DNA of 64,000 bases from Chelydra serpentina (taxonomy: Eukaryota > Chordata > Testudines > Chelydridae): NCBI GenBank assembly GCA_037349315.1, contig JBAIAC010000641.1:1-64000 (forward strand). The letters run 5' to 3'. The notes below the pieces were generated by a model. It was not told where the DNA came from. It searched no databases and saw only the letters and a list, made by a program, of their open reading frames with translations. The first letter of the stretch is position 1. Every line of letters begins with the position of its first letter. Both the position numbers and the translations under genes were made by a program. Below, piece by piece: positions 23,901 to 64,000 of the stretch.

Positions 23901-23902
23901 AC

Positions 23903-27110: not shown

Positions 27111-27184
27111 TGGGGGGGGGGGCGCTTGCAGAAACTGCTCCCTGCAGCAGCAGACTGGCCTGGGGAGGGGGGTGTCAGCCAGGG

Positions 27185-28740: not shown

Positions 28741-29260
28741 GGGGGCTTTTCAGGCCAGACTTGATGCCGGAGTTCATTATCAGAAGCTGGCGTTGGTTCG
28801 AATGCGGGTGAGACACACACGTCCGTGTGTCCGTGCGTCCGTGTGTCCGTGTGTCCGAACAAGGCTATAACAACTGTTCACATTTTGTTCAGCGCGAGGT
28901 TTTCACCAACCGAATGTCTCTTGCCCACAGAAAAGTGTGGGGGGGGTGAGGATCAGGGGGGGTTAGGGGAGGGGAGCAGGGGGGGGTGAGGATCAGGGGG
29001 GGTTAGGGGAGGGGAGCAGGGGGGGGGTGAGGATCAGGGCGGGGGGGGGATGGTTTTGCCGCATGATTAGCCTGGAGCGAGCAGCAGATGAGGAAGCAGC
29101 TCTCGGGCCCCAGTTCATTATTTTACAGTTGAAAAGAATCGGTGCAAAATAACCTGCGTAAAACACTTGTCAAATCCCCCCCCTGTCCAGGGCTCGGTGC
29201 CCAGGCTCAGCAGAGCCAGGAGCAGCTTTCTGAACACGTCAGCAGGAAACACCCCCCCCC
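28741..29260 (+). repeat. Partial array unit 0 (left edge)
   Basis: Right part of a unit: the spacer from TTTTCAGGCCAGACTTGATG, an expanded (GTCCGTGT)n tract near 28820-28857, and a poly-G tract at 28938-29050 expanded with minisatellite-E-like GGTGAGGATCAGGGGGGGTT units. It then gives the normal leader of tRNA gene 1. Confidence 0.85.
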
Positions 29261-29332
29261 AGCAGAGTGGCGCAGCGGCAGCGTGCTGGGCCCATAACCC
29301 AGAGGTCGATGGATCGAAACCATCCTCTGCTA
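29261..29332 (+). tRNA. Initiator tRNA-Met (CAT), copy 1, A20C variant
   Basis: A 72-nt gene folding as a full cloverleaf with anticodon CAT. It shows the eukaryotic initiator hallmarks: A1:T72, three G:C pairs in the anticodon stem (GGG/CCC) and a T-loop ATCGAAA with A54 and A60. The A box (TGGCGCAGC..) and B box (GGATCGAAACC) are intact. Position 20 is C instead of the conserved A. A TTTT terminator lies at 29340-29343. No CCA is encoded and there is no intron, as expected. Confidence 0.93.
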
Positions 29333-30899
29333 GTTCCTGTTTTATTACTCACACCCCTGGAAATCATTCCCGCCGCCTGCCTTTGAGACCCCCAGAGAAG
29401 AGGAGCGCGGTCTCCTGCTCTTTACTCTTGCACCCGCATTAAACCGAGGGGTCACGCCCCACACCGTCCCCTCCTGCTCTTTACTCTTGCACCCGCATTA
29501 AACCGAGGGGTCACGCCCCACACCGTCCCCTCCTGCTCTTTACTCTTGCACCCGCATTAAACCGAGGGGTCACGCCCCACACCGTCCCCTCCTGCTCTTT
29601 ACTCTTGCACCCGGATTAAATCGAGGGGTCACGCCCCACACCGTCCCCTCCTGCTCTTTACTCTTGCACCCGGATTAAACCGAGGGGTCACGCCCCACAC
29701 CGTCCCCTCCTGCTCTTTACTCTTGCACCCGCATTAAACCGAGGGGTCACGCCCCACACCGTCCCCTCCTGCTCTTTACTCTTGCACCCGGATTAAACCG
29801 AGGGGTCACGCCCCACACCATCCCCTCCTGCTCTTTACTCTTGCACCCGCATTAAACCGAGGGGTCACGCCCCACACCGTCCCCTCCTGGAAGGACAGAG
29901 AGGTGCCAGGCATTGCCTCTAAGATTTGACAGGCCGTGTGCGCGACAAATCTCTTTCGTGCAGGGTTTTGACGCAGAGGGCAAATTTGTGCGCCGGGAGG
30001 CCAAGGCGCCCAAGCGCGCAAACTGCTCCTGCCTTTACAAAGTGGCCGTTTGCAATCTGTGTCCGTGTGGATGGGTTTCCAGAGAGAGGGGAAAAAAGAG
30101 AAAAACAAACCTTTGTGTTTTACATTTCAAACGTTCCTAACAAAATCCATCAATACACGATCAGCCGAGACTCAGACATTGTCATTACAACTGCGTTTTC
30201 ATTTGTAACAGCCTTTTGTGTCCTTGTCTATTGTCATCATGTTCCCCTCAGTCTTCTCCTCTCCAGACTAAACAAACCCACCTTTTTTTCAACCTTCCCT
30301 CACAGGGCGTGTTTTCTAAGCCTTTAATCGTTTTTCTTCCTCTTCTCTGGACTGTCTCCAATTACAAACAACATCTACAATGGAAACGCACAATTTGAAA
30401 TCAACATTCACCCTTCTTCCCTTACCCCCACTCTTTTCTTAATCTGGACCTGTTACCCTTAACTATTGCAAGACGTATGATATGTCTCGTCCCACCCTGA
30501 CCTGAGCCCTCTGCAAAACCAAGCGTTAAGGATTGTCGTGAGTTTTAAGATGTCTTAAACATGTTGTTTTCTCTATTTTTTTATAGGGGAAAGGCCACAT
30601 AAAGAATGGATAGAACAATTACAGTGTAGGAGGTAAAAACACGCTTACACATTTTTTTAAAACGTGTCTTATGTAAATGTTTACAAACTTTCACTACACA
30701 GGTTGTTAACACGACAGCCTGCAAGAGCTGCGACATCTGTAACCATTTTTAATTCAGCATTAAACTCGGGCAACGTTTCATCGACGTGGCTCACCTCTCC
30801 TACTGCGACAGAGTGAGTTTATGGAAAGATGTATTCTTTCAACTCCCTCGCGTAACGGGGGTGCGATGGTGAAAGGCCTGGGGACAGCCATGAGGATGT

Positions 30900-31540
30900 T
30901 CTCTTTTAGGGATCGATTTTTCCTTCAGGATGCATTTTTGCATTAAAGACTCCCCAGCAGCGCCCCTGTGCCATGTACATTGGCCAAACCGGACAGTCTC
31001 CACGCCAAAGAATAAACGGACACAAATCTGCCATCAGAAACCGTAACATCCCAAAACCAGTCGGAGAAACTTCAATCTCCCTGGACACTCAATAACAGAC
31101 TAAACGTGGCCATTCCTCAACACAAAACCAGACTCCGACGTGAAACGGCAGAACTGGAATTCGTTTGCAAACTGGACACCATCCCATTAGGCCTGAATAC
31201 AGACCAGGAGTCGTCGGGTCATTACAAAACCTAAACCTAATGTCCCCCTCCTGTTACTCACACCTTCCTGTCAATAAACGGGGCGACTCTCATCACCACT
31301 TCAAAAGTGATTGTTCCTCCCTCGGTATCCTGCTCTTAATTGAATTGTCTCGTTAAGACTGAGCTCACAACTCTCATCCTTTCATGTCTCCTGTATTTGC
31401 CACTCCATGCCTCTGAGGAAGTGGAATCTAGCCCACGAAAGCTCATGCCCAAATACATTTGTTAGACTCCAAGGTGCCACAAGGCCTCCTCCTTGTTTTG
31501 GCTGATACAGACAAACACGGCTCCCCTCTGAAACCTTACC
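30900..31540 (+). mobile_element. Penelope-like retroelement 3' part (unit 1)
   Basis: Encodes a degenerate GIY-YIG endonuclease (CAMYIGQTGQSPRQRINGHK, with YIG and the following Arg and His) and the C-terminal RLRRETAELEFVCKLDTIPL block in another frame. It ends in the PLE tail (GGTGCCACAAGG, CTCTGAAACC). Frameshifts and the missing reverse transcriptase make it inactive. Confidence 0.78.
31413..31440 (+). ncRNA. Hammerhead-ribozyme-like core in PLE (unit 1)
   Basis: CTGAGGA at 31413-31419, a GTGG/CCAC stem, then GAAA at 31437-31440, followed by a possible GC/GC short stem. The usual T at the cleavage-site dinucleotide is C, so activity is doubtful. Confidence 0.45.
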
Positions 31541-31682
31541 CCAAGCGACAGTTTCGATACAGTTTCTCCCCCAAAAAGGGGGGTGTAAAATCGGTCTGGA
31601 GAGTGTTGGTGTCTCTGCGGAGGTGGAATGATTATGAAGGCGGAGCCGGCTGCTTCCTTCGCCGGGAGCAGCCTTCTGGAGT

Positions 31683-32827
31683 AGACACGGACCCATCGCT
31701 TTAGCGAAGACGCTGTGCGGAGTAGACGCGGCCTTAGCTAGGGACGAGCGGCCTCGTCCTGGGGGGGTCTGCAGACGACCTCGAAGGGGGTCCAGGAAAC
31801 GTTGGCGTCACCCTGGTTTTCAACCCGCGGACCCCTGACGGTCCGCAGACGAAGTCTAAGATTTCCAGAGGGGTCCGCGCCGCCATTCAAAGCAAAAACG
31901 TGTAGGGGTCCGCACACGAACGCTGGCCTAGGCGTTGGGGTGCCCGGTGCCCTGGGACGCAGGCGCTGAGCCGTGCCGCCCTGCGAGGGGGGGGAATAGA
32001 AAACACCCCTTTGCCCCCCACCCCATCTTTGCAACCCGGGCTCAGCCCATCGGGGGTAACTTTGAGCCCTTCTGCCCCTCTCGGTGCCGGGGCTTTGCCC
32101 TCTGACACCGTCTCAACCAGGGCCGGTCTTAGGGGAAATGGAGCCCTGGGCAAACTTGTATTTGGGCGCCTCTGGGAGCACGGTGGCCCCCCCATTGCCC
32201 CTGGCCCCCGCAGGCTCCCCACTCCCCCATCTCCACAGGCTCCCCACCCTCCAGGGACCCACTGCCCCCCCCCCCCCCGGGTTTAATGTGTATGGAAAGA
32301 GGTGTATTTTCCCACACTTACTCGGTGCTGCCCCCTTCCCCATCCTGTGCTCCTCAGCCCTGCACCCCCCCCCCAATGCCCACATGGGGGAACTGACCTG
32401 GGGCTCGCTTCCCCGTCCGTCCCGGCCCCCACGTTCCCCTGCACCCCCGTAGGGCTGAGCAAGAAGCCGCCCAGCCCAGCTGGGGAAAGTGACCTGGACG
32501 CCCGGAGCGCTTGGTGTTGCCCCTTGCGTTCCCCCCACCCCAGCTCCCTGGGGGGGTACAGAGGAACATTCCCCCCCCCGCGCACCCCGTGTGTCTGCTC
32601 TGCCAATGTGCTGCGCTCCCCTGCCAGCGGGTGTGCCCCTCCCCTGGCCTAGCGCCCCCCTGGGCTTTTCAACGGTTCTTCAGAAACGGGGGCCGATAAA
32701 TACACGATGGGCGTCCCGGGGCCGCGCAGCCCGAGCGGATTGCGGTAGACGCACCGCAGATTTCCCTGGCTAGCTCAGGGCCCCTCTTGACAGACATTGC
32801 AGGGAGCCGGGACCTGCCCGAAATTAG
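31683..32827 (+). repeat. GC-rich module of long units (unit 1)
   Basis: About 1.1 kb present in units 1, 4 and 11 and, inverted, at 7595-8738. It contains C-rich tracts and GGGCCGGTCTTAGGGG. Overlapping open frames on both strands show no recognisable domain. I do not recognise its origin. Confidence 0.7.
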
Positions 32828-32835
32828 CCACCATC

Positions 32836-32958
32836 TAGGGTGACCAGATGTCCTGATTTTATAGGGACAGTCCCGATTTTTGGGTCTTTTTCTTATATAG
32901 GCTCCTATTACCCCCCACCCCCGTCCCGATTTTTCACACTTGCTGTCTGGTCACCCTA
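32836..32958 (+). mobile_element. MITE 1 (unit 1), hAT-like
   Basis: Perfect 8-bp target duplication CCACCATC at 32828-32835 and 32959-32966. Terminal repeats TAGGGTGACCAGA and TCTGGTCACCCTA. Short units have the single site as CCACCCTC. Confidence 0.88.
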
Positions 32959-33123
32959 CCACCATCTTAAAAGATTTCAGCGGCTTTCGAAAAGTGGAAT
33001 TGCCCCTTGGAAAAAAATAAAACGAGCCGGGAGCTCCCTTCGTTCCCTCGTCCGTTTAATAGGCTCTCTGGGTTTGCATTTCACGGAACAAAAAACTGGC
33101 TTTGAAAAAAGATATGGGCCTAT

Positions 33124-33246
33124 TAGGGTGAGCAGATGTCCCGATTTTATAGGGACAGTCCCGATTTTTGGGTCTTTTTCTTATATAGGCTCCTATAACC
33201 CTCCACCCCCTGTCCCGATATTTCACACTTGCTGTCTGCTCACCCT
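33124..33246 (+). mobile_element. MITE 2 (unit 1), hAT-like
   Basis: Terminal repeats AGGGTGAGCAGA and TCTGCTCACCCT. The flanks GGGCCTAT and GGGCCTAC are an 8-bp target duplication differing by one base. Short units read CTACGGGCCTCTGTAAAATG without insertion. Confidence 0.85.
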
Positions 33247-33274
33247 CGGGCCTACGTAAAATGCTCGGATCTCC

Positions 33275-33440
33275 CACGCTGAGCGAGAAACAACAAGGAG
33301 GCCGGTGGCACCTTAAAGATGTATTTGGAGCATAAGCTTTTGTGTGTAAAAAACCCACCAATGCCCTATAAAAAAACAGAGACAATAACACGTCTAAGAC
33401 ATCTTAAAACTCACAACCCTGCTCAACGCTTGGTTTGTGA
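33275..33440 (-). mobile_element. PLE-tail insertion (unit 1)
   Basis: Antisense PLE tail (AACAAGGAGGCCGGTGGCAC, GCATAAGCTTTTGTGTG) flanked by AAATGCTCGG and AAATGCTCCG, a near-perfect target duplication. Absent from short units. Confidence 0.75.
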
Positions 33441-33886
33441 AATGCTCCGAGCTCTCTGGCTGGGAGAGGGGTTGACATTTGGCCGCGAACGTTTCCGGAC
33501 GGACTTGATGCCGGAATCATAATCAGACGCGCGAGTTGGTTCGAAGGCGGGTGAGACGAGGAACACATTGTCCGTGTTTCCTAATCGATGATACAGAAAC
33601 GATTCACATTTGTTCAGCGCGAGGTTTTCACCCAACTGAATGTCTCTTGCCCACAGAAAAGCAAGGGGGGGGGGGGATGGTTTTGCCGCATGATTAGCCT
33701 GGAGCGAGCAGCAGATGAGGAAGCAGCTCTCGGGTCCCAGTTCATTATTTTACAGTTGAAAAGAATCGGTGCAAAATAACCCGCGTAAAACACTTGCCAA
33801 ATCCCCCCCCTGTCCAGGGCTCGGTGCCCAGGCTCAGCAGAGCCAGGAGCAGCTTTCTGAACATGTCAGCAGGAAACACCCCCCCC

Positions 33887-33958
33887 AGCAGAGTGGGGCA
33901 GCGGCAGCGTGCTGGGCCCATAACCCAGAGGTCGATGGATCGAAACCATCCTCTGCTA
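33887..33958 (+). tRNA. Initiator tRNA-Met-like, copy 2, probably impaired
   Basis: C11G replaces the C11:G24 D-stem pair with G:G and also alters the A box. A20C as in copy 1. The rest of the cloverleaf and the TTTT terminator are intact. Likely weak or a pseudogene. Confidence 0.8.
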
Positions 33959-35349: not shown

Positions 35350-35421
35350 AGCAGAGTGGCGCAGCGGAAGCATGCTGGGCCCATAACCCAGAGGTCGATG
35401 GATTGAAACCATCCTCTGCTA
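35350..35421 (+). tRNA. Initiator tRNA-Met-like, copy 3, likely pseudogene
   Basis: Two substitutions: G24A (breaks the D-stem pair with C11) and C56T in the T-loop. C56 is invariant, needed for the G19:C56 tertiary pair and for the B box. Transcription and folding should both suffer. Confidence 0.78.
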
Positions 35422-36877: not shown

Positions 36878-36949
36878 AGCAGAGTGGCGCAGCGGAAGCG
36901 TGCTGGGCCCATAACCCAGAGGTCGATGGATCGAAACCATCCTCTGCTA
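36878..36949 (+). tRNA. Initiator tRNA-Met (CAT), copy 4
   Basis: Canonical vertebrate initiator sequence with no substitution; A20, A54 and A60 all present. TTTT terminator follows within 12 nt. Confidence 0.96.
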
Positions 36950-38280
36950 GTTCCTGTTTTATTACTTACAGCCCTGGAAATCATTCCCGCCGCCTGCCTT
37001 TGAGACCCCCAGAGAAGAGGAGCGCGTTCTCCTGCTCTTTACTCTTGCACCCGCATTAAACCGAGGGGTCACGCCCCACACCGTCCCCGCCTGCTCTTTA
37101 CTCTTGCACCCGCATTAAACCGAGGGGTCACGCCCCACACCGTCCCCTCCTGCTCTTTACTCTTGCACCCGCATTAAACCGAGGGGTCACGCCCCACACC
37201 GTCCCCTCCTGCTCTTTACTCTTGCACCCGCATTAAACCGAGGGGTCACGCCCCACACCATCCCCTCCTGGAAGGACAGAGAGGTGCCAGGCGTTGCCTC
37301 TAAGATTTGACAGGCCGTGTGCACGACAAATGTCTTTCGTGCAGGGTTTTGACGCAGAGGGCAAATTTCTGCGCCGGGAGGCCAAGGCGCCCAAGCGCGC
37401 AAACTGCTCCTGCCTTTACAAAGTGGCCGTTTGCAATCTGTGTCCGTGTGGATGGGTTTCCAGAGAGAGGGGAAAAAAGAGAAAAACAAACCTTTGTGTT
37501 TTACATTTCAAACGTTCCTAAGAAAATCCATCAATACACGATCAGCCGAGACTCAGACATTGTCATTACAACTGCGTTTTCATTTGTAACAGCCTTTTGT
37601 GTCCTTGTCTATTGTCATCATGTTCCCCTCAGTCTTCTCCTCTCCAGACTAAACAAACCCACCTTTTTTTCAACCTTCCCTCACAGGGCGTGTTTTCTAA
37701 GCCTTTAATCGTTTTTCTTCCTCTTCTCTGGACTGTCTCCAATTACAAACAACATCTACAATGGAAACGCACAATTTGAAATCAACATTCACCCTTCTTC
37801 CCTTACCCCCACTCTTTTCTTAATCTGGACCTGTTACCCTTAACTATTGCAAGACATATGATAGGTCACGTCCCACCCTGACCTGAGCCCTCTGCAAAAC
37901 CAAGCGTTAAGGATTGTCGTGAGTTTTAAGATGTCTTAAACATGTTGTTTTCTCTATTTTTTTATAGGGGAAAGGCCACATAAAGAATGGATAGAACAAT
38001 TACAGTGTAGGAGGTAAAAACACGCTTACACATTTTTTAAAAACGTGTCTTATGTAAATGTTTACAAACTTTCACTACACAGGTTGTTAACACGACAGCC
38101 TGCAAGAGCTGCGACATCTGTAACCATTTTTAATTCAGCATTAAACTCGGGCAACGTTTCATCGACGTGGCTCACCTCTCCTACTGCGACAGAGTGAGTT
38201 TATGGAAAGATGTATTCTTTCGACTCCCTCGCGTAACGGGGGTGCGATGGTGAAAGGCCTGGGGACAGCCATGAGGATGT

Positions 38281-38922
38281 TCTCTTTTAGGGATCGATTT
38301 TTCCTTCAGGATGCATTTTTGCATTAAAGACTCCCCAGCAGCGCCCCTGTGCCATGTACATTGGCCAAACCGGACAGTCTCCACACCAAAGAATAAACGG
38401 ACACAAATCTGACATCAGGAACCGTAACATCCAAAAACCAGTCGGAGAAACTTCAATCTCCCTGGACACTCAATAACAGACTAAACGTGGCCATTCCTCA
38501 ACACAAAACCAGACTCCAACGTGAAACGGCAGAACTGGAATTCATTTGCAAACTGGACACCATCCCATTAGGCCTGAATACAGACCGGGAGTGGTCGGGT
38601 CATTACAAAACCTAAACCTAAAGTCCCCCTCCTGTTACTCACACCTTCCTGTCAGCTGTTTGAAACGGGGCCACTCTCATCACCCCTTCAAAAGTGATTG
38701 TTCCTCCCTCGGTATCCTGCTCTTAATTGAATTGTCTCGTTAAGACTGAGCTCACAACTCTCATCCTTTCATGTCTCCTGTATTTGCCACTCCATGCCTC
38801 TGATGAAGTGGAATCTAGCCCACGAAAGCTCATGCCCAAATACATTTGTTAGACTCCAAGGTGCCACAAGGCCTCCTCCTTGTTTTGGCTGATACAGACA
38901 AACACGGCTCCCCTCTGAAACC
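38281..38922 (+). mobile_element. Penelope-like retroelement 3' part (unit 4)
   Basis: Copy of the unit-1 PLE with a few base differences (e.g. a CAGCTGTTTGAAACGGGGCC stretch missing from unit 1). Same frameshifts, so it was multiplied as part of the unit and not by transposition. Confidence 0.78.
38800..38827 (+). ncRNA. Hammerhead-ribozyme-like core in PLE (unit 4)
   Basis: Here the core reads CTGATGA, the exact hammerhead consensus, at 38800-38806, with GAAA at 38824-38827. The cleavage-site flank is still ATGCCC as in the other copies. Confidence 0.5.
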
Positions 38923-40221
38923 TTACCCCAAGCGACGGTTTCGATACAGTTTCTCCCCCAAAAAGGGGGGGTGTTAAATCGGTCTGGAGAGTGTTGGTGT
39001 CTCGTGCGGAGGTGGAATGATTATGAAGGCGGAGCCGGCTGCTTCCTTCGCCGGGAGCAGCCTTCTGGAGTAGACACGGACCCATCGCTTTAGCGAAGAC
39101 GCTGTGCGGAGCAGACGCGGCCTTAGCTAGGGACGAGCGGCCTCGTCCTGGGGGGGTCTGCAGACGACCTCGAAGGGGGTCCAGGAAACGTTGGCGTCAC
39201 CCTGGTTTTCAACCCGCGGACCCCTGACGATCCGCAGACGAAGTCTAAGATTTCCAGAGGGGTCCGCGCCGCCATTCCAAACAAAAACGTGTAGGGGTCC
39301 GCACACGAACGCTGGCCTAGGCGTTGGGGTGCCCGGTGCCCTGGGACGCAGGCGCTGAGCCGTGCCGCCCTGCGAGGGGGGGGAATAGAAAACACCCCTT
39401 TGCCCCCCACCCCATCCTTGCAACCCGGGCTCAGCCCATCGGGGGTAACTTTGAGCCCTTCTGCCCCGCCTGGGGCCGGGGCTTTGCCCTCTGCCACCGT
39501 CTCAACCAGGGCCGGTCTTAGGGGAAATGGAGCCCTGGGCAAACTTGTATTTGGGCGCCTCCGGGAGCACGGTGGCCCCCCCATTGCCCCTGGCCCCTGC
39601 AGGCTCCCCACTCCCCCATCTCCACAGGCTCCCCACCCTCCAGGGACCCACTGCCCCCCCCCCCCGGGTTTAATGTGTATGGAAAGAGGTGTATTTTCCC
39701 ACACTTACTCGGTGCTGCCCCTTGCCCCCTCCAGTGCTCCTCAGCCCTGCACCCCGCCCCCCAATGCCCACATGGGGGAACTGACCTGGGGCTCGCTTCC
39801 CCGTCCGTCCCGGCCCCCACGTTCCCCCGCACCCCCATAGGGCTGAGCAAGAAGCCGCCCAGCCCAGCTGGGGAAAGTGACCTGGACGCCCGGAGCGCTT
39901 GGTGTTGCCCCTTGCGTTCCCCCCACCCCAGCTCCCCGGGGGTGTACAGATGAACATTCCCCCCCCCGCACCCCGTGTGTCTGCTCTGCCAATGTGCTGC
40001 GCTCCCCTGCCAGCGGGTGTGCCCCTCCCCTGGCCCTGCGCCCCCCTGGGCTTTTCAACGGTTCTTCAGAAACGGGGGCCGATAAATACACGATGGGCGT
40101 CCCGGGGCCGCGCAGCCCGAGCGGATTGCGGTAGACGCACCGCAGATTTCCCTGGCTAGCTCAGGGCCCCTCTTGACAGACATTGCAGGGAGCCGGGACC
40201 TGCCCAAAATTAGCCACCATC

Positions 40222-40344
40222 TAGGGTGACCAGATGTCCCGATTTTATAGGGACAGTCGGGATTTTTGGGTCTTTTTCTTATATAGGCTCCTATTACCCC
40301 CCACCCCCGTCCCGATTTTTCACACTTGCTGTCTGGTCTCCCTA
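40222..40344 (+). mobile_element. MITE 1 (unit 4)
   Basis: Same site and CCACCATC duplication as in unit 1. The right terminal repeat is mutated to GGTCTCCCTA. Confidence 0.85.
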
Positions 40345-40509
40345 CCACCATCTTAAAAGATTTCAGCGGCTTTCGAAAAGTGGAATTGCCCCTCGGAAAA
40401 AAATAAAACGAGCCGGGAGCTCCCTTCGTTCCCTCGTCCGTTTAATAGGCTCTCTGGGTTTGCATTTCACGGCACAAAAAACTGGCTTTGAAAAAAGATA
40501 TGGGCCTAT

Positions 40510-40632
40510 TAGGGTGAGCAGAGGTCCCGATTTTATAGGGACAGTCCCGATGTTGGGGTCTTTTTCTTATATAGGCTCCTATAACCCTCCACCCCCTGTC
40601 CCGATATTTCACTCTTGCTGTCTGCTCACCCT
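40510..40632 (+). mobile_element. MITE 2 (unit 4)
   Basis: Same insertion site as in unit 1, flanks GGGCCTAT and GGGCCTAC. Confidence 0.85.
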
Positions 40633-41301
40633 CGGGCCTACGTAAAATGCTCGGATCTCCCACGCTGAGCGAGAAACAACAAGGAGGCCGGTGGCACCTT
40701 AAAGATGTATTTGGAGCATAAGCTTTTGTGTGTAAAAAACCCACCAATGCCCTATAAAAAACCAGAGACAATAACACGTCTAAGACATCTTAAAACTCAC
40801 AACCCTGCTCAACGCTTGGTTTGTGAAATGCTCCGAGCTCTCTGGCTGGGAGAGGGGTTGACATTTGGCCGCGAACGTTTCCGGACAGACTTGCTGCCGG
40901 AATCATGATCAGACGCTCGAGTTGGTTCGAAGGCTGGTGAGACGAGGAACACATTGTCCGTGTTTCCTAATCGATGATACAGAAACGATTCACATTTTGT
41001 TCAGCGCGAGGTTTTCACCCAACCGAACGTCTCTTGCCCACAGAAAAGCGGGGGGGGGCCGGGGGTGAGGATCGGGGGGGGGGGGGGTGGGATGGTTTTG
41101 CCGCATGATTAGCCTGGAGCGAGCAGCAGATGAGAAAGCAGCTCTCGGGTCCCAGTTCATTATTTTACAGTTGAAAAGAATCGGTGCAAAATAACCTGCG
41201 TAAAAACCTTGTCAAATCCCCCCCCTGTCCAGGGCTCGGTGCCCAGGCTCAGCAGAGCCAGGAGCAGCTTTCTGAACACGTCAGCGGGAAACACCCCACC
41301 C

Positions 41302-41373
41302 AGCAGAGTGGCGCAGCGGAAGCGTGCTGGGCCCATAACCCAGAGGTCGATGGATCGAAACCATCCTCTGCTA
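41302..41373 (+). tRNA. Initiator tRNA-Met (CAT), copy 5
   Basis: Canonical sequence, no substitution. TTTT terminator present. Leader has CACCCCACCC where most copies have an unbroken C run. Confidence 0.96.
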
Positions 41374-42764
41374 GTTCCTGTTTTATTACTCACACCCCTG
41401 GAAATCATTCCCGCCGCCTGCCTTTGAGACCCCCAGAGAAGAGGAGCACGGTCTCCTGCTCTTTACTCTTGCACCCGGATTAAACCGAGGGGTCACGCCC
41501 CACACCGTCCCCTCCTGCTCTTTACTCTTGCACCCGGATTAAACCGAGGGGTCACGCCCCACACAGTCCCCTTCTGCAGGGAGAGAGAGGTGCTAGGACT
41601 CCCGTCACGTACAACCACAGGACGGGACCTCGGGGGGTCGTTTAGTCCCGTCCCCGGCACTCAAGGCAGGACTCAGTATTATCTAGACCAGCCCTGACGG
41701 GTGTTTGTCCAGCCTGCTCTTAAACATCCCCAATGATGGAGATTCCACAACCTCCCTCGGCAATTTATTCCAGTGCTTAACCACCCTGACAGTTAGGAAG
41801 TTTTTCCTAATGTCCGACCTAAGCTTGCTGCAATTTAAGGCCATTGCTTCTTGTCCTGTCCTCAGAGGTTAAGAAGAACAGTTTTTCTCCCCCCTTCTTT
41901 TAACAACCTTTTAGTTACTTGTATATTGTCATCATGTTCCCCCCACCCCTCAGTCTTCTCTTCTCCAGACTAAACAAACCCAATTTTTTTTTCACCCTTC
42001 CCTCCCACGCACTGTTCCCTCTAGGCTGTGCGCGGGCGCGCGCGCACACGGATCCGAAACCCCGCGCACACGGCGAAACACCGCGCGCGCAAAAATCTGC
42101 ATCGACGCACAACAATTGGCAGAGAAGAAATTCTGTGTGCACACGGGTAGCCACCCTCTTAAAATATGTCAGCGGCTTTGGAAAACTGGAATTGCCCCTT
42201 GGAAAAAAATAAAACGAGCCGGGAGCTCCCTTCGTTCCTTCGTCCGTTTAATAGGCTCTCTGGGTTTGCATCTCACTGAACAAAACTGGCTTGGAAAAAA
42301 TCTACGGGCCTCTGTAAAATGCTCGGCTCTGTCTTGCTGGGAGAGGGGTTGAAATTTGGCTGCAAACGTTTCAGGCCAGACTTGATGCCGGAATCATTAT
42401 CAGACGCTCGAGTTGGTTCGAAGGCAGGTGAGACGAGGAACACATTGTCCGTGTTTCCTAATCGATGCTCTAGAAACGATTCACATTTGTTCAGCGCGAG
42501 GTTTTCACCCAACCGAATGTCTCTTGCCCACAGAAAAGCAAGGGGGCGGGGGGATGGTTTTGCCGCATGATTAGCCTGGAGCGAGCAGCAGATGAGGAAG
42601 CAGCTCTCGGGTCCCAGTTCATTATTTTACAGCTGAAAAGAATCGGTGCAAAATAACCCGCGTGAAACACTTGTCAAATCCCCCCCCTGTCCAGGGCTCG
42701 GTGCCCAGGCTCAGCAGAGCCAGGAGCAGCTTTCTGAACACGTCAGCAGGAAACACCCCCCCCC
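41374..42764 (+). repeat. Array unit 5 (short type)
   Basis: VNTR 41454-41571 (2 copies), antisense CR1 about 41595-41997, spacer, shortened poly-G (GGGGGCGGGGGG). Confidence 0.9.
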
Positions 42765-42836
42765 AGCAGAGTGGCGCAGCGGAAGCGTGCTGGGCCCATA
42801 ACCCAGAGGTCGAAGGATCGAAACCATCCTCTGCTA
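42765..42836 (+). tRNA. Initiator tRNA-Met-like, copy 6, T-stem mismatch
   Basis: T51A in the T stem (GATGG becomes GAAGG) gives an A:A mismatch. Everything else is canonical. Possibly reduced stability. Confidence 0.85.
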
Positions 42837-44227: not shown

Positions 44228-44299
44228 AGCAGAGTGGTGCAGCGGCAGCGTGCTGGGCCCATAACCCAGAGGTCGATGGATCGAAACCATCCTCTGCTA
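44228..44299 (+). tRNA. Initiator tRNA-Met (CAT), copy 7, C11T and A20C
   Basis: C11T leaves a T:G wobble in the D stem; A20C as in copies 1, 2 and 11. Folding is otherwise intact and it may still be expressed. Confidence 0.88.
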
Positions 44300-48752: not shown

Positions 48753-48824
48753 AGCAGAGTGGCGCAGCGGAAGCGTGCTGGGCCCATAACCCAGAGGTCG
48801 ATGGATCGAAACCATCCTCTGCTA
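48753..48824 (+). tRNA. Initiator tRNA-Met (CAT), copy 9
   Basis: Canonical sequence. TTTT terminator present. Confidence 0.96.
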
Positions 48825-50391: not shown

Positions 50392-50463
50392 AGCAGAGTG
50401 GCGCAGCGGAAGCGTGCTGGGCCCATAACCCAGAGGTCGATGGATCGAAACCATCCTCTGCTA
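50392..50463 (+). tRNA. Initiator tRNA-Met (CAT), copy 10
   Basis: Canonical sequence. TTTT terminator present. Confidence 0.96.
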
Positions 50464-52561
50464 GTTCCTGTTTTATTACTCACACCCCTGGAAATCATTC
50501 CCGCCGCCTGCCTTTGAGACCCCCAGAGAAGAGGAGCGCGGTCTCCTGCTCTTTACTCTTGCACCCGGATTAAACCGAGGGGTCACGCCCCACACCGTCC
50601 CCTCCTGCTCTTTACTCTTGCACCCGCGTTAAACCGAGGGGTCACGCCCCACACCGTCCCCTCCTGCTCTTTACTCTTGCACCCGCATTAAACCGAGGGG
50701 TCACGCCCCACACCGTCCCCTCTTGCTCTTTACTCTTGCACCCGCATTAAACCGAGGGGTCACGCCCCACACCGTCCCCTCCTGCTCTTTACTCTTGCAC
50801 CCGGATTAAACCGAGGGGTCACGCCCCACACCGTCCCCTCTTGCTCTTTACTCTTGCACCCGCATTAAACCGAGGGGTCACGCCCCACACAGTCCCCTCC
50901 TGCTCTTTACTCTTGCACCCGGATTAAACCGAGGGGTCACGCCCCACACCGTCCCCTCCTGCTCTTTACTCTTGCACCCGCATTAAACCGAGGGGTCACG
51001 CCCCACACCGTCCCCTCTTGCTCTTTACTCTTGCACCCGCATTAAACCGAGGGGTCACGCCCCACACCGTCCCCTCCCGCTCTTTACTCTTGCACCCGCA
51101 TTAAACCGAGGGGTCACGCCCCACACCGTCCCCTCCCGCTCTTTACTCTTGCACCCGCATTAAACCGAGGGGTCACGCCCCACACCGTCCCCTCTTGCTC
51201 TTTACTCTTGCACCCGCATTAAACCGAGGGGTCACGCCCCACACTGTCCCCTCCTGCTCTTTACTCTTGCACCCTCATTAAACCGAGGGGTCACGCCCCA
51301 CACCGTCCCCTCCTGCTCTTTACTCTTGCACCCGGATTAAACCGAGGGGTCACGCCCCACACCGTCCCCTCCTGCAAGGAGAGAGAGGTGCTAGGACTCC
51401 CGTCACGTGCAACCACAGGACGGGACCTCGGGAGGTCGTCTAGTCCCGTCCCCGGCACTCAAGGCAGGACTCAGTATTATCTAGACCATCCCTGATGGGT
51501 GTTTGTCCAGCCTGCTCTTAAACATCCCCAGTGATGGAGATTCCACCACCTCCCTCGGCAATTTATTCCAGTGCTTAACCACCCTGACAGTTAGGAAGTT
51601 TTTCCTAATGTCCGACCTAAGCTTGCTGCAATTTAAGCCCATTGCTTCTTGTCCTGTCCTCAGAGGTTAAGAAGAACAGTTTTTCTCCCCCCTTCTTTTA
51701 ACAACCTTTTAGTTACTTGTATATTGTCATCATGTTCCCCCCACCCCTCAGTCTTCTCTTCTCCAGACTAAACAAACCCCATTTTTTTTTCACCCTTCCC
51801 TCCCACGCACTGTTCCCTCTAGGCTGTGCGCGGGTGCGCGCGCACACGGATCCGAAACCCCGCGCACACGGCGAAACACCGCGCACGCAAAAATCTGCAT
51901 GGACGCACAACAACTGGCAGAGAAGAAATTCTGTGTGCGCACGGGTAGCCACCCTCTTAAAATCTGTCAGTGGCTTTGGAAAACTGGAATTGCCCCTTGG
52001 AAAAAAATAAAACGAGCCGGGAGCGCCCTTCGTTCCCTCGTCCGTTTAATAGGCTCTCTGGGTTTGCATTTCACGGAACAAAACTGGCTTGGAAAAAATC
52101 TACGGGCCTCTGTAAAATGCTCGGCTCTGTCTTGCTGGGAGAGGGCTTGAAATTTGGCTGCAAACGTTTCAGGCCAGACTTGACGCTGGAATCATTATCA
52201 GACGCGCGAGTTGGTTCGAAGGCGGGTGAGACGAGGAACACATTGTCCGTGTTTCCTAATCGATGATACAGAAACGATTCACATTTCTTCAGCGCGAGGT
52301 TTTCACCCAACCGAATGTCTCTTGCCCACAGAAAAGCAGGGGGGGGGTGGGATGGTTTTGCCGCATGATTAGCCTGGAGCGAGCAGCAGATGAGGAAGCA
52401 GCTCTCGGGTCCCAGTTCATTATTTTACAGCTGAAAAGAATTGGTGCAAAATAACCTGCGTAAAACACTTGTCAAATCCCCCCCCTGTCCAGGGCTCGGT
52501 GCCCAGGCTCAGCAGAGCCAGGAGCAGCTTTCTGAACACGTCAGCAGGAAACACCCCCCCC
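50464..52561 (+). repeat. Array unit 10 (short type, expanded VNTR)
   Basis: VNTR 50544-51369 is exactly 14 copies. A CTCTTGCTC variant recurs at several spaced copies, suggesting duplication of multi-copy blocks. Antisense CR1 about 51393-51792, then spacer. Confidence 0.9.
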
Positions 52562-52633
52562 AGCAGAGTGGCGCAGCGGCAGCGTGCTGGGCCCATAACC
52601 CAGAGGTCAATGGATCGAAACCATCCTCTGCTA
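52562..52633 (+). tRNA. Initiator tRNA-Met-like, copy 11, A20C and G49A
   Basis: G49A gives an A:C mismatch at the top of the T stem; A20C is also present. Boxes A and B are otherwise intact. Confidence 0.83.
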
Positions 52634-53851
52634 GTTCCTGTTTTATTACTCACACCCCTGGAAATCATTCCCGCCGCCTGCCTTTGAGACCCCCAGAGAA
52701 GAGGAGCACGGTCTCCCGCTCTTTACTCTTGCACCCGCATTAAACCGAGGGGTCACGCTCCACACCGTCCCCTCCTGCTCTTTACTCTTGCACCCGGATT
52801 AAACCGAGGGGTCACGCCCCACACCGTCCCCTCCTAGAAGGACAGAGAGGTGCCAGGCGTTGCCTCTAAGATTTGACAGGCCGTGTGCGCGACAAATGTC
52901 TTTCGTGCAGGGTTTTGATGCAGAGGGCAAATTTGTGCGCCGGGAGGCCAAGGCGCCCAAGCGCGCAAACTGCTCCTGCCTTTACAAAGTGGCCGTTTGC
53001 AATCTGTGTCCGTGTGGATGGGTTTCCAGAGAGAGGGGAAAAAAGAGAAAAACAAACCTTTGTGTTTTACATTTCAAACGTTCCTAAGAAAATCCATCAA
53101 TACACGATCAGCCGAGACTCAGACATTGTCATTACAACTGCGTTTTCATTTGTAACAGCCTTTTGTGTCCTTGTCTATTGTCATCATGTTCCCCTCAGTC
53201 TTCTCTTCTCCAGACTAAACAAACCCACCTTTTTTTCAACCTTCCCTCACAGGTCGTGTTTTCTAAGCCTTTAATCGTTTTTCTTCCTCTTCTCCGGACT
53301 ATCTCCAATTACAAACACCATCTACAATGGAAACGCACAATTTGAAATCAACATTCACCCTTCTTCCCTTACCCCCACTCTTTTCTTAATCTGGACCTGT
53401 TACCCTTAACTATTGCAAGACGTATGATATGTCTCGTCCCACCCTGACCTGAGCCCTCTGCAAAACCAAGCGTTAAGGATTGTCGTGAGTTTTAAGATGT
53501 CTTAAACATGTTGTTTTCTCTATTTTTTTATAGGGGAAAGGCCACATAAAGAATGGATAGAACAATACAGTGTAGGAGGTAAAAACACGTTTACACATTT
53601 TTTTAAAACGTGTCTTATGTAAATGTTTACAAACTTTCACTACACAGGTTGTTAACACGACAGCCTGCAAGAGCTGCGACATCTGTAACCATTTTTAATT
53701 CAGCATTAAACTCGGGCAACGTTTCATCGACGTGGCTCACCTCTCCTACTGCGACAGAGTGAGTTTATGGAAAGATGTATTCTTTCAACTCCCTTGCGTA
53801 ACGGGGGTGCGATGGTGAAAGGCCTGGGGACAGCCATGAGGATGTTCTCTT

Positions 53852-54490
53852 TTAGGGATCGATTTTTCCTTCAGGATGCATTTTTGCATTAAAGACTCCT
53901 CAGCAGCGCCCCTGTGCCATGTACATTGGCCAAACCGGACAGTCTCCACGCCAAAGAATAAACGGACACAAATCTGACATCAGGAACCGTAACATCCCAA
54001 AACCAGTCGGAGAAACTTCAATCTCCCTGGACACTCAATAACAGACTAAACGTGGCCATTCCTCAACACAAAACCAGACTCCGACGTGAAACGGCAGAAC
54101 TGGAATTCATTTGCAAACTGGACACCATCCCATTAGGCCTGAATACAGACCGGGAGTGGTCGGGTCATTACAAAACCTAAACCTAAAGTCCCCCTCCTGT
54201 TACTCACACCTTCCTGTCAGCTGTTTGAAACGGGGCCAGTCTCATCACCACTTCAAAAGTGATTGTTCCTCCCTCGGTATCCTGCTCTTAATTGAATTGT
54301 CTCGTTAAGACTGAGCTCACAACTCTCATCCTTTCATGTCTCCTGTATTTGCCACTCCATGCCTCTGAGGAAGTGGAATCTAGCCCACGAAAGCTCATGC
54401 CCAAATACATTTGTTAGACTCCAAGGTGCCACAAGGCCTCCTCCTTGTTTTGGCTGATACAGACAAACACGGCTCCCCTCTGAAACCTTA
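53852..54490 (+). mobile_element. Penelope-like retroelement 3' part (unit 11)
   Basis: Third copy of the PLE fragment, GIY-YIG remnant at about 53915-54040, same defects as units 1 and 4. Confidence 0.78.
54365..54392 (+). ncRNA. Hammerhead-ribozyme-like core in PLE (unit 11)
   Basis: CTGAGGA at 54365-54371, GTGG/CCAC stem, GAAA at 54389-54392, as in unit 1. Confidence 0.45.
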
Positions 54491-55783
54491 CCCCAAGCGA
54501 CGGTTTCGATACAGTTTCTCCCCCAAAAAGGGGGGGGTGTTAAATCGGTCTGGAGAGTGTTGGTGTCTCGTGCGGAGGTGGAATGATTATGAAGGCGGAG
54601 CCGGCTGCTTCCTTCGCCGGGAGCAGCCTTCTGGAGTAGACACGGACCCATCGCTTTAGCGAAGACGCTGTGTGGAGCAGACGCGGCCTTAGCTAGGGAC
54701 GAGCGGCCTCGTCCTGGGGGGTCTGCAGACGACCTCGAAGGGGGTCCAGGAAACGTTGGCGTCACCCTGGTTTTCAACCCGCGGACCCCTGACGATCCGC
54801 AGATGAAGTCTAAGATTTCCAGAGGGGTCCGCGCCGCCATTCAAAGCAAAAACGTGTAGGGGTCCGCACACGAACGCTGGCCTAGGCGTTGGGGTGCCCG
54901 GTGCCCTGGGACGCAGGCGCTGAGCCGTGCCGCCCTGCGAGGGGGGGGAATAGAAAACACCCCTTTGCCCCCAACCCCATCCTTGCAACCCGGGCTCAGC
55001 CCATCGGGGGTAACTTTGAGCCCTTCTGCCCCTCTCGGTGCCGGGGCTTTGCCCTCTGCCACCGTCTCAACCAGGGCCGGTCTTAGGGGAAATGGAGCCC
55101 TGGGCAAACTTGTATTTGGGCGCCTCCGGGAGCACGGTGGCCCCCCCATTGCCCCTGGCCCCCGCAGGGTCCCCACTCCCCCATCTCCACAGGCTCCCCA
55201 CCCTCCAGGGACCCACTGCCCCCCCCCCGGGTTTAATGTGTATGGAAAGAGGTGTATTTTCCCACACTTACTCGGTGCTGCCCCCTTCCCCATCCTGTGC
55301 TCCTCAGCCCTGCACCCCCCCCCAATGCCCACATGGGGGAACTGACCTGGGGCTCGCTTCCCCGTCCGTCCCGGCCCCCACGTTCCCCCGCACCCCCGTA
55401 GGGCTGAGCAAGAAGCCGCCCAGCCCAGCTGGGGAAAGTGACCTGGACGCCCGGAGCGCTTGGTGTTGCCCCTTGCGTTCCCCCCACCCCAGCTCCCCGG
55501 GGGGGTACGGAGGAACATCCCCCCCCCCCGCACCCCGTGTGTCTGCTCTGCCAATGTGCTGCGCTCCCCTGCCAGCGGGTGTGCCCCTCCCCTGGCCCTG
55601 CGCCCCTCTGGGCTTCTCAACGGTTCTTCAGAAACGGGGGCCGATAAATACACGATGGGCGTCCCGGGGCCGCGCAGCCCGAGCGGATTGCGGTAGACGC
55701 ACCGCAGATTTCCCTGGCTAGCTCAGGGCCCCTCTTGACAGACATTGCAGGGAGCCGGGACCTGCCCGAAATTAGCCACCATC

Positions 55784-55905
55784 TAGGGTGACCAGATGTC
55801 CCGATTTTATAGGGACAGTCCCGATTTTGGGGTCTTTTTCTTATATAGGCTCCTATTACCCCCCACCCCCGTCCCGATTTTTCACACTTGCTGTCTGGTC
55901 TCCCT
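55784..55905 (+). mobile_element. MITE 1 (unit 11)
   Basis: Same site as in unit 1, flanked by CCACCATC on both sides. Right terminal repeat has GGTCTCCCTA as in unit 4. Confidence 0.85.
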
Positions 55906-56071
55906 ACCACCATCTTAAAAGATTTCAGCGGCTTTCGAAAAGTGGAATTGCCCCTTGGAAAAAAATAAAACGAGCCGGGAGCTCCCTTCGTTCCCTCGTC
56001 CGTTTAATAGGCTCTCTGGGTTTGCATTTCACGGAACAAAAAACTGGCTTTGAAAAAAGATATGGGCCCAT

Positions 56072-56193
56072 TAGGGTGAGCAGACGTCCCGATTTTATAG
56101 GGACAGTCCCGATGTTGGGGTCTTTTTCTTATATAGGCTCCTATAACCCCCCACCCCTGTCCCGATATTTCACACTTGCTGTCTGCTCACCCT
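56072..56193 (+). mobile_element. MITE 2 (unit 11)
   Basis: Same site as in unit 1. Left flank GGGCCCAT has one further change. Confidence 0.83.
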
Positions 56194-56834
56194 CGGGCCT
56201 ACGTAAAATGCTCGGATCTCCCACGCTGAGCGAGAAACAACAAGGAGGCCGGTGGCACCTTAAAGATGTATTTGGAGCATAAGCTTTTGTGTGTAAAAAA
56301 CCCACCAATGCCCTATAAAAAACCAGAGACAATAACACGTCTAAGACATGTTAAAACTCACAACCCTGCTCAACGCTTGGTTTGTGAAATGCTCCGAGCT
56401 CTCTGGCTGGGAGAGGGGTTGACATTTGGCCGCGAACGTTTCCGGACAGACTTGCTGCCGGAATCATGATCAGACGCTCGAGTTGGTTCGAAGGCGGGTG
56501 AGACGAGGAACACATTGTCCGTGTTTCCTAATCGATGATACAGAAACGATTCACATTTTGTTCAGCGCGAGGTTTTCACCCAACCGAATGTCTCTTGCCC
56601 ACAGAAAAGCAAGGGGGGGGGGGGATGGTTTTGCCGCATGATTAGCCTGGAGCGAGCAGCAGATGAGAAAGCAGCTCTTGGGTCCCAGTTCATTATTTTA
56701 CAGCTGAAAAGAATCGGTGCAAAATAACCTGCGTAAAACACTTGTCAAATCCCCCCCCTGTCCAGGGCTCGGTGCCCAGGCTCAGCAGAGCCAGGAGCAG
56801 CTTTCTGAACACGTCAGCAGGAAACACCCCACCC

Positions 56835-56906
56835 AGCAGAGTGGCGCAGCGGAAGCGTGCTGGGCCCATAACCCAGAGGTCGATGGATCGAAACCATCCT
56901 CTGCTA
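56835..56906 (+). tRNA. Initiator tRNA-Met (CAT), copy 12
   Basis: Canonical sequence. TTTT terminator present. Confidence 0.96.
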
Positions 56907-58357: not shown

Positions 58358-58429
58358 AGCAGAGTGGCGCAGCGGAAGCGTGCTGGGCCCATAACCCAGA
58401 GGTCGATGGATCGAAACCATCCTCTGCTA
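58358..58429 (+). tRNA. Initiator tRNA-Met (CAT), copy 13
   Basis: Canonical sequence. The trailer differs (CTAGCTTCTGTTTTA), shared only with copy 14. Terminator intact. Confidence 0.96.
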
Positions 58430-59880: not shown

Positions 59881-59952
59881 AGCAGAGTGGCGCAGCGGAA
59901 GCGTGCTGGGCCCATAACCCAGAGGTCGATGGATCGAAACCATCCTCTGCTA
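59881..59952 (+). tRNA. Initiator tRNA-Met (CAT), copy 14
   Basis: Canonical sequence, same variant trailer as copy 13. Confidence 0.96.
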
Positions 59953-61343: not shown

Positions 61344-61415
61344 AGCAGAGTGGCGCAGCGGAAGCGTGCTGGGCCCATAACCCAGAGGTCGATGGATCGA
61401 AACCATCCTCTGCTA
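61344..61415 (+). tRNA. Initiator tRNA-Met (CAT), copy 15
   Basis: Canonical sequence. TTTT terminator present. Confidence 0.96.
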
Positions 61416-62806
61416 GTTCCTGTTTTATTACTCACACCCCTGGAAATCATTCCCGCCGCCTGCCTTTGAGACCCCCAGAGAAGAGGAGCACGGTCTCCTG
61501 CTCTTTACTCTTGCACACTGATTAAACCGAGGGGTCTCACCCCACACCGTCCCCTCCTGCTCTTTACTCTTGCACCCGCATTAAACCGAGGGGTCACGCC
61601 CCACACCGTCCCCTTCTGCAGGGAGAGAGAGGTGCTAGGACTCCCGTCACGTACAACCACAGGACGGGACCTCGGGAGGTCATCTAGTCCCGTCCCCGGC
61701 ACTCAAGGCAGGACTCAGTATTATCTAGACCATCCCTGACGGGTGTTTGTCCAGCCTGCTCTTAAACATCCCCAATGATGGAGATTCCACCACCTCCCTC
61801 GGCAATTTATTCCAGTGCTTAACCACCCTGACAGTTAGGAAGTTTTTCCTAATGTCCAAACTAAGCTTGCTGCAATTTAAGCCCATTGCTTCTTGTCCTG
61901 TCCTCAGAGGTTAAGAAGAACAGTTTTTCTCCCCCCTTCTTTTAACAACCTTTTAGTTACTTGTATATTGTCATCATGTTCCCCCCACCCCTCAGTCTTC
62001 TCTTCTCCAGACTAAACAAACCCAATTTTTTTTTCACCCTTCCCTCCCACGCACTGTTCCCTCTAGGCTGTGCGCGGGCGCGCGCGCACACGGATCCGAA
62101 ACCCCGCGCACACGGCGAAACACCGCGCGCGCAAAAATCTGCATGGACGCACAACAACTGGCAGAGAAGAAATTCTGTGTGCACACGGGTAGCCACCCTC
62201 TTAAAATATGTCAGCGGCTTTGGAAAACTGGAATTGCCCCTTGGAAAAAAATAAAACGAGCCGGGAGCTCCCTTCGTTCCCTCGTCCGTTTAATAGGCTC
62301 TCTGGGTTTGCATTTCACTGAACAAAACTGGCTTGGAAAAAATCTACGGGCCTCTGTAAAATGCTCGGCTCTGTCTTGCTGGGAGAGGGGTTGAAATTTG
62401 GCTGCAAACGTTTCAGGCCAGACTTGATGCCGGAATCATGATCAGACGCGCGAGTTGCTTCGAAGGCGGGTGAGACGAGGAACACATTGTCCGTGTTTCC
62501 TAATCGATGCTCTAGAAACGATTCACATTTTGTTCAGCGCGAGGTTTTCACCCAACCGAATGTCTCTTGCCCACAGAAAAGCAGGGGGGTGGTGGGATGG
62601 TTTTGCCGCATGATTAGCCTGGAGCAAGCAGCAGATGAGAAAGCAGCTCTCGGGTCCCAGTTCATTATTTTACAGTTGAAAAGAATCGGTGCAAAATAAC
62701 CTGCGTAAAACACTTGTCAAATCCCCCCCCTGTCCAGGGCTCGGTGCCCAGGCTCAGCAGAGCCAGGAGCAGCTTTCTGAACACGTCAGCAGGAAACACC
62801 CCACCC
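61416..62806 (+). repeat. Array unit 15 (short type)
   Basis: VNTR 61496-61613 (2 copies, the first with the GCACACTGATT variant also in units 6 and 16), antisense CR1 about 61637-62037, spacer. Confidence 0.9.
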
Positions 62807-62878
62807 AGCAGAGTGGCGCAGCGGAAGCGTGCTGGGCCCATAACCCAGAGGTCGATGGATCGAAACCATCCTCTGCTA
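62807..62878 (+). tRNA. Initiator tRNA-Met (CAT), copy 16
   Basis: Canonical sequence. TTTT terminator present. Confidence 0.96.
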
Positions 62879-64000
62879 GTTCCTGTTTTATTACTCACAC
62901 CCCTGGAAATCATTCCCGCCGCCTGCCTTTGAGACCCCCAGAGAAGAGGAGCACGGTCTCCAGCTCTTTACTCTTGCACACTGATTAAACCGAGGGGTCT
63001 CACCCCACACCGTCCCCTCCTGCTCTTTACTCTTGCACCCGCATTAAACCGAGGGGTCACGCCCCACACCGTCCCCTTCTGCAGGGAGAGAGAGGTGCTA
63101 GGACTCCCGTCACGTACAACCACAGGACGGGACCTCGGGAGGTCGTCTAGTCCCGTCCCCGGCACTCAAGGCAGGACTCAGTATTATCTAGACCATCCCT
63201 GACGGGTGTTTGTCCAGCCTGCTCTTAAACATCCCCAATGATGGAGATTCCACCACCTCCCTCGGCAATTTATTCCAGTGCTTAACCACCCTGACAGTTA
63301 GGAAGTTTTTCCTAATGTCCGACCTAAACTTGTGCAATTTAAGCCCATTGCTTCTTGTCCTGTCCTCAGAGGTTAAGAAGAACAGTTTTTCTCCCCCCTT
63401 CTTTTAACAACCTTTTAGTTACTTGTATATTGTCATCATGTTCCCCCCACCCCTCAGTCTTCTCTTCTCCAGACTAAACAAACCCATTTTTTTTTTCACC
63501 CTTCCCTCCCACGCACTGTTCCCTCTAGGCTGTGCGCGGGTGCGCGCGCACACGGATCCGAAACCCCGCGCACACGGCGAAACACCGCGCGCGCAAAAAT
63601 CTGCATGGACGCACAACAACTGGCAGAGAAGAAATTCTGTGTGCACACGGGTAGCCACCCTCTTAAAATATGTCAGCGGCTTTGGAAAACTGGAATTGCC
63701 CCTTGGAAAAAAATAAAATGAGCCAGGAGCGCCCTTCGTTCCCTCGTCCGTTTAATAGGCTCTCTGGGTTTGCATTTAACGGAACAAAACTGGCTTGGAA
63801 AAAATCTACGGGCCTCTGTAAAATGCTCGGCTCTGTCTTGCTGGGAGAGGGGTTGAAATTTGGCTGCAAGCTTTTCAGGCCAGACTTGCTGCCGGAATCA
63901 TGATCAGAGGCGCGAGTTGGTTCGAAGGCGGGTGAGACGAGGAACACATTGTCCGTGTTTCCTAATCGATGCTCTAGAAACGATTCACATTTGTTCAGCG
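62879..64000 (+). repeat. Array unit 16 (short type, cut by window end)
   Basis: VNTR 62959-63076 (2 copies), antisense CR1 about 63100-63500, spacer to TTGTTCAGCG at the window end. The array evidently continues. Confidence 0.9.

Follow-up and report, generated by a model that had tools for sequence, protein, structure and literature searches.

How did a turtle genome come to carry a long row of initiator tRNA genes, and what keeps them there? The question is raised by the start of contig JBAIAC010000641.1 (C635; 226,864 bp) in assembly GCA_037349315.1 of Chelydra serpentina, whose first 64,000 nucleotides are the window analyzed here. The window contains a tandem array of repeat units, each with one initiator tRNA-Met gene. 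The array consists of two unit types, bears a signature of recombination between units, occupies a single locus as judged by an exact flank pattern, and is homologous to clustered initiator-type genes elsewhere in the genome. We consider that it represents one recombining branch, with initiator genes alone, of a broader amplification of tRNA genes; many of its copies look transcribable, and we give this reading a probability of about 0.72.

Sixteen initiator tRNA genes in tandem units

ARAGORN and Rfam (RF00005) agreed on a set of 16 tRNA genes, which lie on the plus strand of the window between 29261 and 62878, one per repeat unit, as a first-pass annotation of the window had noted. All 16 were typed by ARAGORN as tRNA-Met with anticodon CAT, and their Rfam scores ranged from 46.6 to 58.4 bits (cutoff, 29). 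Neither program detected a tRNA in 1-28740, and a permissive Rfam search (E up to 1) of 28600-44300 returned just seven tRNA genes and no other RNA gene in the units. The annotation had counted ten canonical copies, and ten genes are indeed mutually identical; this canonical form agrees in all 72 letters with the human initiator tRNA-Met (tRNA-iMet-CAT) given in a paper on human MetRS (PMC8216282). The predicted terminators were also recovered, as TTTT lies 8 nucleotides (nt) downstream of the gene end in 16 of 16 copies.

Eukaryotic initiator tRNA-Met is recognized by CAT, A1:U72, A54, A60, and three G:C pairs at the foot of the anticodon stem (standard tRNA numbering). These features are kept in every gene of the window. 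The annotation had gone further in ascribing all initiator hallmarks to every copy, which holds for the ten canonical genes and needs qualification for the other six, each of which carries one or two changes. A20 is replaced by C in four genes, a stem pair is broken in four, and two genes carry both defects; the full consensus is present in 10/16. The B box is unaltered in 15 copies, the exception being C56T, and the A-box stretch (8-19) is unaltered in 14. Four of the seven distinct gene changes are CpG transitions. Four of the seven break a stem pair, compared to 48% expected for random changes. The genes are as follows.

29261..29332, plus strand: initiator tRNA gene, A20C (ARAGORN, Rfam, alignment to consensus)
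33887..33958, plus strand: initiator tRNA gene, C11G + A20C (11:24 pair broken)
35350..35421, plus strand: initiator tRNA gene, G24A + C56T (pair broken, B box altered)
36878..36949, plus strand: initiator tRNA gene, canonical
41302..41373, plus strand: initiator tRNA gene, canonical
42765..42836, plus strand: initiator tRNA gene, U51A (pair broken)
44228..44299, plus strand: initiator tRNA gene, C11U + A20C
47170..47241, plus strand: initiator tRNA gene, canonical
48753..48824, plus strand: initiator tRNA gene, canonical
50392..50463, plus strand: initiator tRNA gene, canonical
52562..52633, plus strand: initiator tRNA gene, A20C + G49A (pair broken)
56835..56906, plus strand: initiator tRNA gene, canonical
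58358..58429, plus strand: initiator tRNA gene, canonical
59881..59952, plus strand: initiator tRNA gene, canonical
61344..61415, plus strand: initiator tRNA gene, canonical
62807..62878, plus strand: initiator tRNA gene, canonical

The units that contain these genes are not uniform. Thirteen are short, the last of them truncated where the window ends, and three are long, at 4626, 4424, and 4273 bp, so that complete units span 1463 to 4626 bp. A short unit consists of 1463 bp plus extra monomers of a 59-bp variable-number tandem repeat (VNTR), together with a stretch that we take to be CR1-like. The VNTR block ranges from 2 to 27 monomers according to TRF, or from 2 to 26 in a separate motif count; two units have enlarged blocks of 27 and 14 copies, and the remaining ones have 2 to 8 (TRF). 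A 5' part of approximately 450 bp is common to the units. A comparison of one short unit with one long unit showed matches in the 5' part, in the gene and its 3' side, and in two additional blocks at 82% and 92%. Homology of the units starts at approximately 28748, next to a G-rich minisatellite that lies beyond this left edge, and continues to the window end (blastn). The main landmarks are listed here.

28748..29260, plus strand: left array edge, truncated 5' unit part (blastn; 28748-28946 approximately 73-75% and 29035-29260 approximately 97% identical to other units)
29261..33886, plus strand: long unit 1, 4626 bp, 8 VNTR monomers
36878..41301, plus strand: long unit 2, 4424 bp
41302..42764, plus strand: short unit, example of the 1463-bp type, 2 VNTR monomers
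44379..45973, plus strand: 59-bp VNTR, 27 copies within one short unit (TRF)
50543..51375, plus strand: 59-bp VNTR, 14 copies (TRF)
52562..56834, plus strand: long unit 3, 4273 bp
62807..64000, plus strand: final short unit, truncated at the window end

The array does not stop at the window end. Searches of the 2.28-Gb assembly (806 contigs) with an exact 24-base pattern from the 5' flank of the gene found 31 copies on C635 between 29.2 and 97.5 kb, 16 of them inside the window. This bears out the expectation that the array leaves the window and that its true copy number is larger. One further copy was found elsewhere, at the edge of contig C687, and the reversed control gave 0. To the extent that an exact pattern can tell, this distribution places the array type at a single locus with 31 or more units. 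The array measures approximately 69 kb, of which the window contains the first 35 kb. Between 64 and 124 kb of C635, ARAGORN called at least seven further initiator genes, all variants (A20C; C56T; C56G; C40T; U51A; A20C + A63G; A20C), and one tRNA-Arg further along. No viral contig carried the unit 5' flank in a search that may leave out records close to the turtle's own genome.

Variation among units and within the gene

The 13 short units differ from each other by 0.43 to 3.66% (mean, 2.50%), and every pair is distinct. Divergence was not related to distance along the array (Spearman coefficient, 0.15; p = 0.19). The three long units differ by 1.6 to 2.0% across approximately 3.8 kb. The 12 full short units yield 1653 pairs of informative sites, of which 614 are incompatible, and a minimum number of recombination events (Rmin) of 24, values that repeated mutation could inflate. 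The locus therefore has the makeup of an array in which head-to-tail units each contain a tRNA gene and hold variants in common by recombination. A20C was tried as a marker of kinship between units and was rejected: mean divergence was 6.2% within the four A20C units, 5.0% between these and the others, and 3.4% among the others, with the A20C figures inflated by the divergent left-edge unit.

If the array were maintained for its tRNA product, the gene might be expected to vary less than the rest of the unit. In the 12 full short units, 5/72 gene sites are variable, compared to 125/1334 elsewhere in the unit (Fisher p = 0.68). The result was similar for CpG sites (3/10 in the gene versus 23/130; p = 0.39) and for non-CpG sites (2/62 versus 102/1204; p = 0.23). 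The gene is intact in 8 of these 12 units, where the mean for other 72-bp segments is 4.75 and 14% of 1261 overlapping segments reach 8. None of 368 CpG-matched overlapping segments has distinct non-CpG variants as few as the gene, but 12.7% of all segments do. The ratio of observed to expected CpG is 0.72 in the short-unit consensus versus 0.51 in 8737-27193. Given the power that 12 full short units afford, conservation of the gene above the rest of the unit is not significant. Selection on the genes was thus not detectable, and the site, CpG, segment, and pair-breaking comparisons speak neither clearly for constraint nor clearly against it.

Related genes elsewhere and the chromosomal setting

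The sequence directly downstream of the gene has a far wider distribution than the 5' flank. A 27-base 3' flank pattern that includes no gene letter, present in 13 of the 16 window units, has 184 exact matches in the genome (control, 0). The first 100 of these 184 fall on 40 contigs and include 5 close to the end of scaffold C30 (70.2 Mb). Fourteen contigs with gene or 3' flank matches, C24 and C30 aside, are 0.18 to 5.6 Mb long; C24 and C30 are 70 Mb each. Initiator-type loci outside the window were taken from a gene search that scored 40 of 785 candidates and omitted the query's own place. We analyzed 14 neighborhoods outside C635 (13 of 8 kb and one of 4.4 kb), each drawn around an initiator-type match and therefore containing one by choice. 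Twelve of the 14 also carry other tRNA types (Phe, Ile, Cys, Ser, Val, and Gly). The longest pairwise matches among the 14 loci extend over 394 to 6763 bp at 86.8 to 98.8% identity; L017 and L018, for example, are 97.8% identical across 6.8 kb. Between the window units and these loci, homology is limited to the gene and approximately 100 bp of 3' flank (matches of 173 to 186 bp, 82.8 to 86.7%).

The density of such clusters is illustrated by a 28-kb stretch of contig C259 (117700-145700; L018, L029, and L030), in which ARAGORN found 17 tRNA genes of nine types and Rfam gave 20 matches, several of them low scoring. A selenocysteine-type call in this stretch has a low Rfam score of 32.6 bits. 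Mixed tRNA clusters were seen on several contigs of the genome. Eight arbitrary 5-kb stretches on six contigs, picked for carrying the 3' flank, contained 1, 1, 4, 0, 0, 4, 3, and 0 tRNA genes by ARAGORN, and the total over these 40 kb was 13 by ARAGORN and 13 by Rfam.

Many of the dispersed genes are close to the initiator consensus. Twenty-two initiator-type genes from the fetched loci, drawn from an incomplete source list, are 1 to 4 letters off the consensus, two more degraded ones have 10 and 12 mismatches, and another (L025:6472) has one inserted base. A gene with A20C that is otherwise exact occurs at L016 and in the arbitrary stretch L039, both on other contigs; this variant is therefore common to the array and the clusters. 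We dropped the idea that no canonical gene exists outside the window, since the search scored 40 of 785 candidates and the fetched letters include N. Two initiator-type genes have one anticodon letter changed, so that ARAGORN reads Val(cac) at L016:3173-3244 and Leu(cag) at L023:6478-6549. To judge from their sequences, these initiator bodies with another anticodon probably represent decay. A 57-bp VNTR lies near dispersed initiator-type genes at L016:4298-5025 and L022:7614-8001. Its consensus is unlike that of the 59-bp VNTR of the window when compared by eye, and minisatellites near the gene may have arisen twice.

We also considered a tRNA-derived short interspersed element (SINE), which would be expected to form dispersed copies that have a tRNA head, a body unrelated to it, and a LINE-like or A-rich tail, as the source of the repeats. 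This candidate was ruled out by the head-to-tail arrangement, by the terminator directly after the gene, and by the presence of the 5' flank 31 times in one locus and once elsewhere. For the dispersed relatives, it was discarded on the ground that they sit among other tRNA types in 12/14 neighborhoods.

To the left of the array, the window contains four large minisatellites (4-2767, 4254-6650, 25503-26674, and 27194-28737) with periods of 40, 85, 70/443, and 43 bp, all strongly G-rich or C-rich on one strand. Our guess is that this minisatellite region belongs to a chromosome end or a microchromosome. The last 4 kb of the two large scaffolds held perfect telomere runs of at most 1 TTAGGG and 1 CCCTAA on C24 and 1 and 2, respectively, on C30. 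An open reading frame (ORF) for a C2H2 zinc-finger protein (11207-12589, minus strand) has 7898 scored relatives. Among the best 120 of these, the top two identities are to turtle proteins, 82% in Chrysemys picta (third by score) and 77% in Lepidochelys olivacea (first by score), and the other matches are 39 to 62% identical. These two matches support a turtle origin of the DNA, within the limits of a gene class that evolves in large families. A reverse transcriptase fragment (Pfam RVT_1) is present at 19463-19870 on the plus strand. A piece of a long unit also lies in this region.

6937..8736, minus strand: inverted 1.8-kb long-unit piece lacking the tRNA gene, 20 kb to the left of the array (blastn; 97.1-97.7% identical to the three long units)

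This piece stops at the position that corresponds to 33494 in long unit 1, and the left edge of the array starts at the equivalent of 33492. The matching break positions suggest an inversion of approximately 21.8 kb with its break inside a unit. Against such an inversion, an identical G-rich minisatellite motif is found in the same orientation on both sides of the array edge.

Origin of the array and its alternatives

Because the gene and approximately 100 bp of 3' flank are common to the array and the mixed clusters, the array is most likely an initiator-only branch of a wider amplification. We propose that unequal exchange expanded it from an initiator module that shares its origin with the clusters, although descent may also have run from the array to the clusters. 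Unequal exchange and gene conversion between units would multiply the array and keep the units partly homogenized, as their mosaic variants and variable lengths suggest. To judge from their sequences, the internal A and B boxes of intact copies would direct transcription by RNA polymerase III (Pol III), with transcripts ending at the TTTT 8 nt downstream. Some copies would decay while exchange restores others. The net result would be a surplus of redundant initiator-tRNA genes under birth-and-death evolution, some intact and some decaying. The first-pass annotation had offered two origins. An amplification of initiator-tRNA dosage is right as to the amplification, which is genuine; adaptive dosage does not follow, as the gene is not significantly more conserved and its CpG sites vary no less. 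Capture of a tRNA gene by a satellite covers too little of the picture, because the gene and its 3' flank have homologs among initiator-type genes in mixed clusters.

Several observations weigh against this reading. The 5' flank from -75 to -24 is changeless in 16 copies, and invariance is therefore not special to the gene. The control for tRNA density is small, and two 5-kb stretches (10 kb) inside large scaffolds contained 0 genes. In addition, the fetched stretches contain N at some positions, and the genes beyond the window are therefore partly known, with counts that are lower bounds.

Multiplication of one or a few units by the assembler would be the simplest way to obtain such an array, as tandem repeats are a known source of error and an extra 5' flank copy lies at the edge of another contig, C687. 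We regard this as extremely unlikely because the units differ, vary in size, and look recombined: no two of the 13 short units are identical, complete units range threefold in length with VNTR blocks of 2 to 27 copies, and the window is free of N. Unequal exchange and gene conversion would give the observed pattern of variation; an assembler that copied one unit would not. The units might instead form a silent satellite in which the tRNA gene is an untranscribed passenger of a minisatellite-rich repeat methylated in the germ line. The predominance of CpG transitions among the gene changes (4/7), the similar variation in gene and spacer, and the VNTR and CR1-like content of the units are what a passenger would show. 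Yet 10/16 genes are intact with boxes and terminators, the gene is intact in more full short units than the average segment (8 versus 4.75, although 14% of segments reach 8), and the CpG ratio of 0.72, next to 0.51, does not look like strong depletion. A silent satellite is thus possible, but it is not the explanation that we favor.

Selection for dosage, in which a need for many initiator genes in at least one stage, such as the oocyte or zygotic genome activation, preserves the array, would account for the ten letter-perfect genes and for the scarcity of non-CpG gene variants, which no CpG-matched segment equals. The same scarcity is found in 12.7% of all segments and does not reach significance (p = 0.23), the CpG sites of the gene vary no less than others, the share of pair-breaking changes is 4/7, compared to 48% for random change, and the genome has many other initiator-type loci. 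There is a precedent in the Arabidopsis SYY tRNA-Ser/Tyr cluster, which is off in most tissues and activated in root caps (PMC12308677), and by analogy an array of this kind could be silent in most cells and on in one tissue. On balance, we find selected dosage rather unlikely. More doubtful still is the specific proposal that the array is a dedicated egg or early-embryo initiator locus, split from a genome-wide turtle tRNA expansion, with A20C as a second initiator species in use. The authors of the Arabidopsis study also point to Pol III recruited to methylated tRNA repeats in the early embryo of Xenopus and mouse. Finally, the B box is unaltered in 15/16 copies, as might be expected if the array, instead of supplying tRNA, bounded a chromatin domain or anchored TFIIIC next to the zinc-finger gene. 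tRNA genes can serve in both roles, but one or two would suffice, and we consider this explanation very improbable.

The preferred reading, an initiator-only branch of a wider amplification, can be set against known tRNA gene arrangements. Human initiator tRNA genes are dispersed, unlike the one-per-unit array of the turtle. Xenopus laevis reportedly has a 3.18-kb tandem tRNA repeat, also in a vertebrate, that includes initiator genes among several tRNA types per unit. The turtle units differ from it in being initiator-only, in falling into two types, and in carrying a 59-bp VNTR; several tRNA types in one unit were not found, with just Met genes in the 16 window units. The Arabidopsis cluster resembles the turtle array in its tandem units and in a core rich in the major form with minor forms and pseudogenes around it, and differs in having two tRNA types per unit, a plant host, and known expression (PMC12308677). 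Entamoeba, a protist, likewise has tRNA genes in tandem units, described in PMC2888827 as the sole reported tandem tRNA repeats as of 2010.

The mixed clusters on other turtle contigs resemble the large clustered tRNA sets of zebrafish and frog, here in an amniote. Published counts are 10,471 tRNA loci in zebrafish and 3,457 in Xenopus tropicalis (PMC9858662), with 65% of zebrafish tRNA genes clustered and mostly mixed neighbors in frog and zebrafish (PMC2888827). Among the matches listed in the open-access literature, which leaves most subscription journals outside, nothing described a nuclear tRNA array in turtles or other reptiles, or an amniote tandem array with initiator genes alone and two types of unit. 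The word "tRNA" is absent from the main text of the painted turtle genome paper (PMC4054807), as are "turtle" and "reptil" from PMC9858662.

The array is a natural test case for what large tRNA amplifications do: they may set tRNA dosage, serve eggs and embryos, or persist as tolerated surplus. To our knowledge, the pattern of large clustered tRNA sets is known mainly from zebrafish and frogs. If our reading is correct, the initiator flank on at least 40 contigs, in many cases amid genes for other tRNAs, together with an initiator-only array, would extend this pattern to turtles. A20C and the other variants tag their transcripts, which makes the question of usage answerable by tRNA sequencing.

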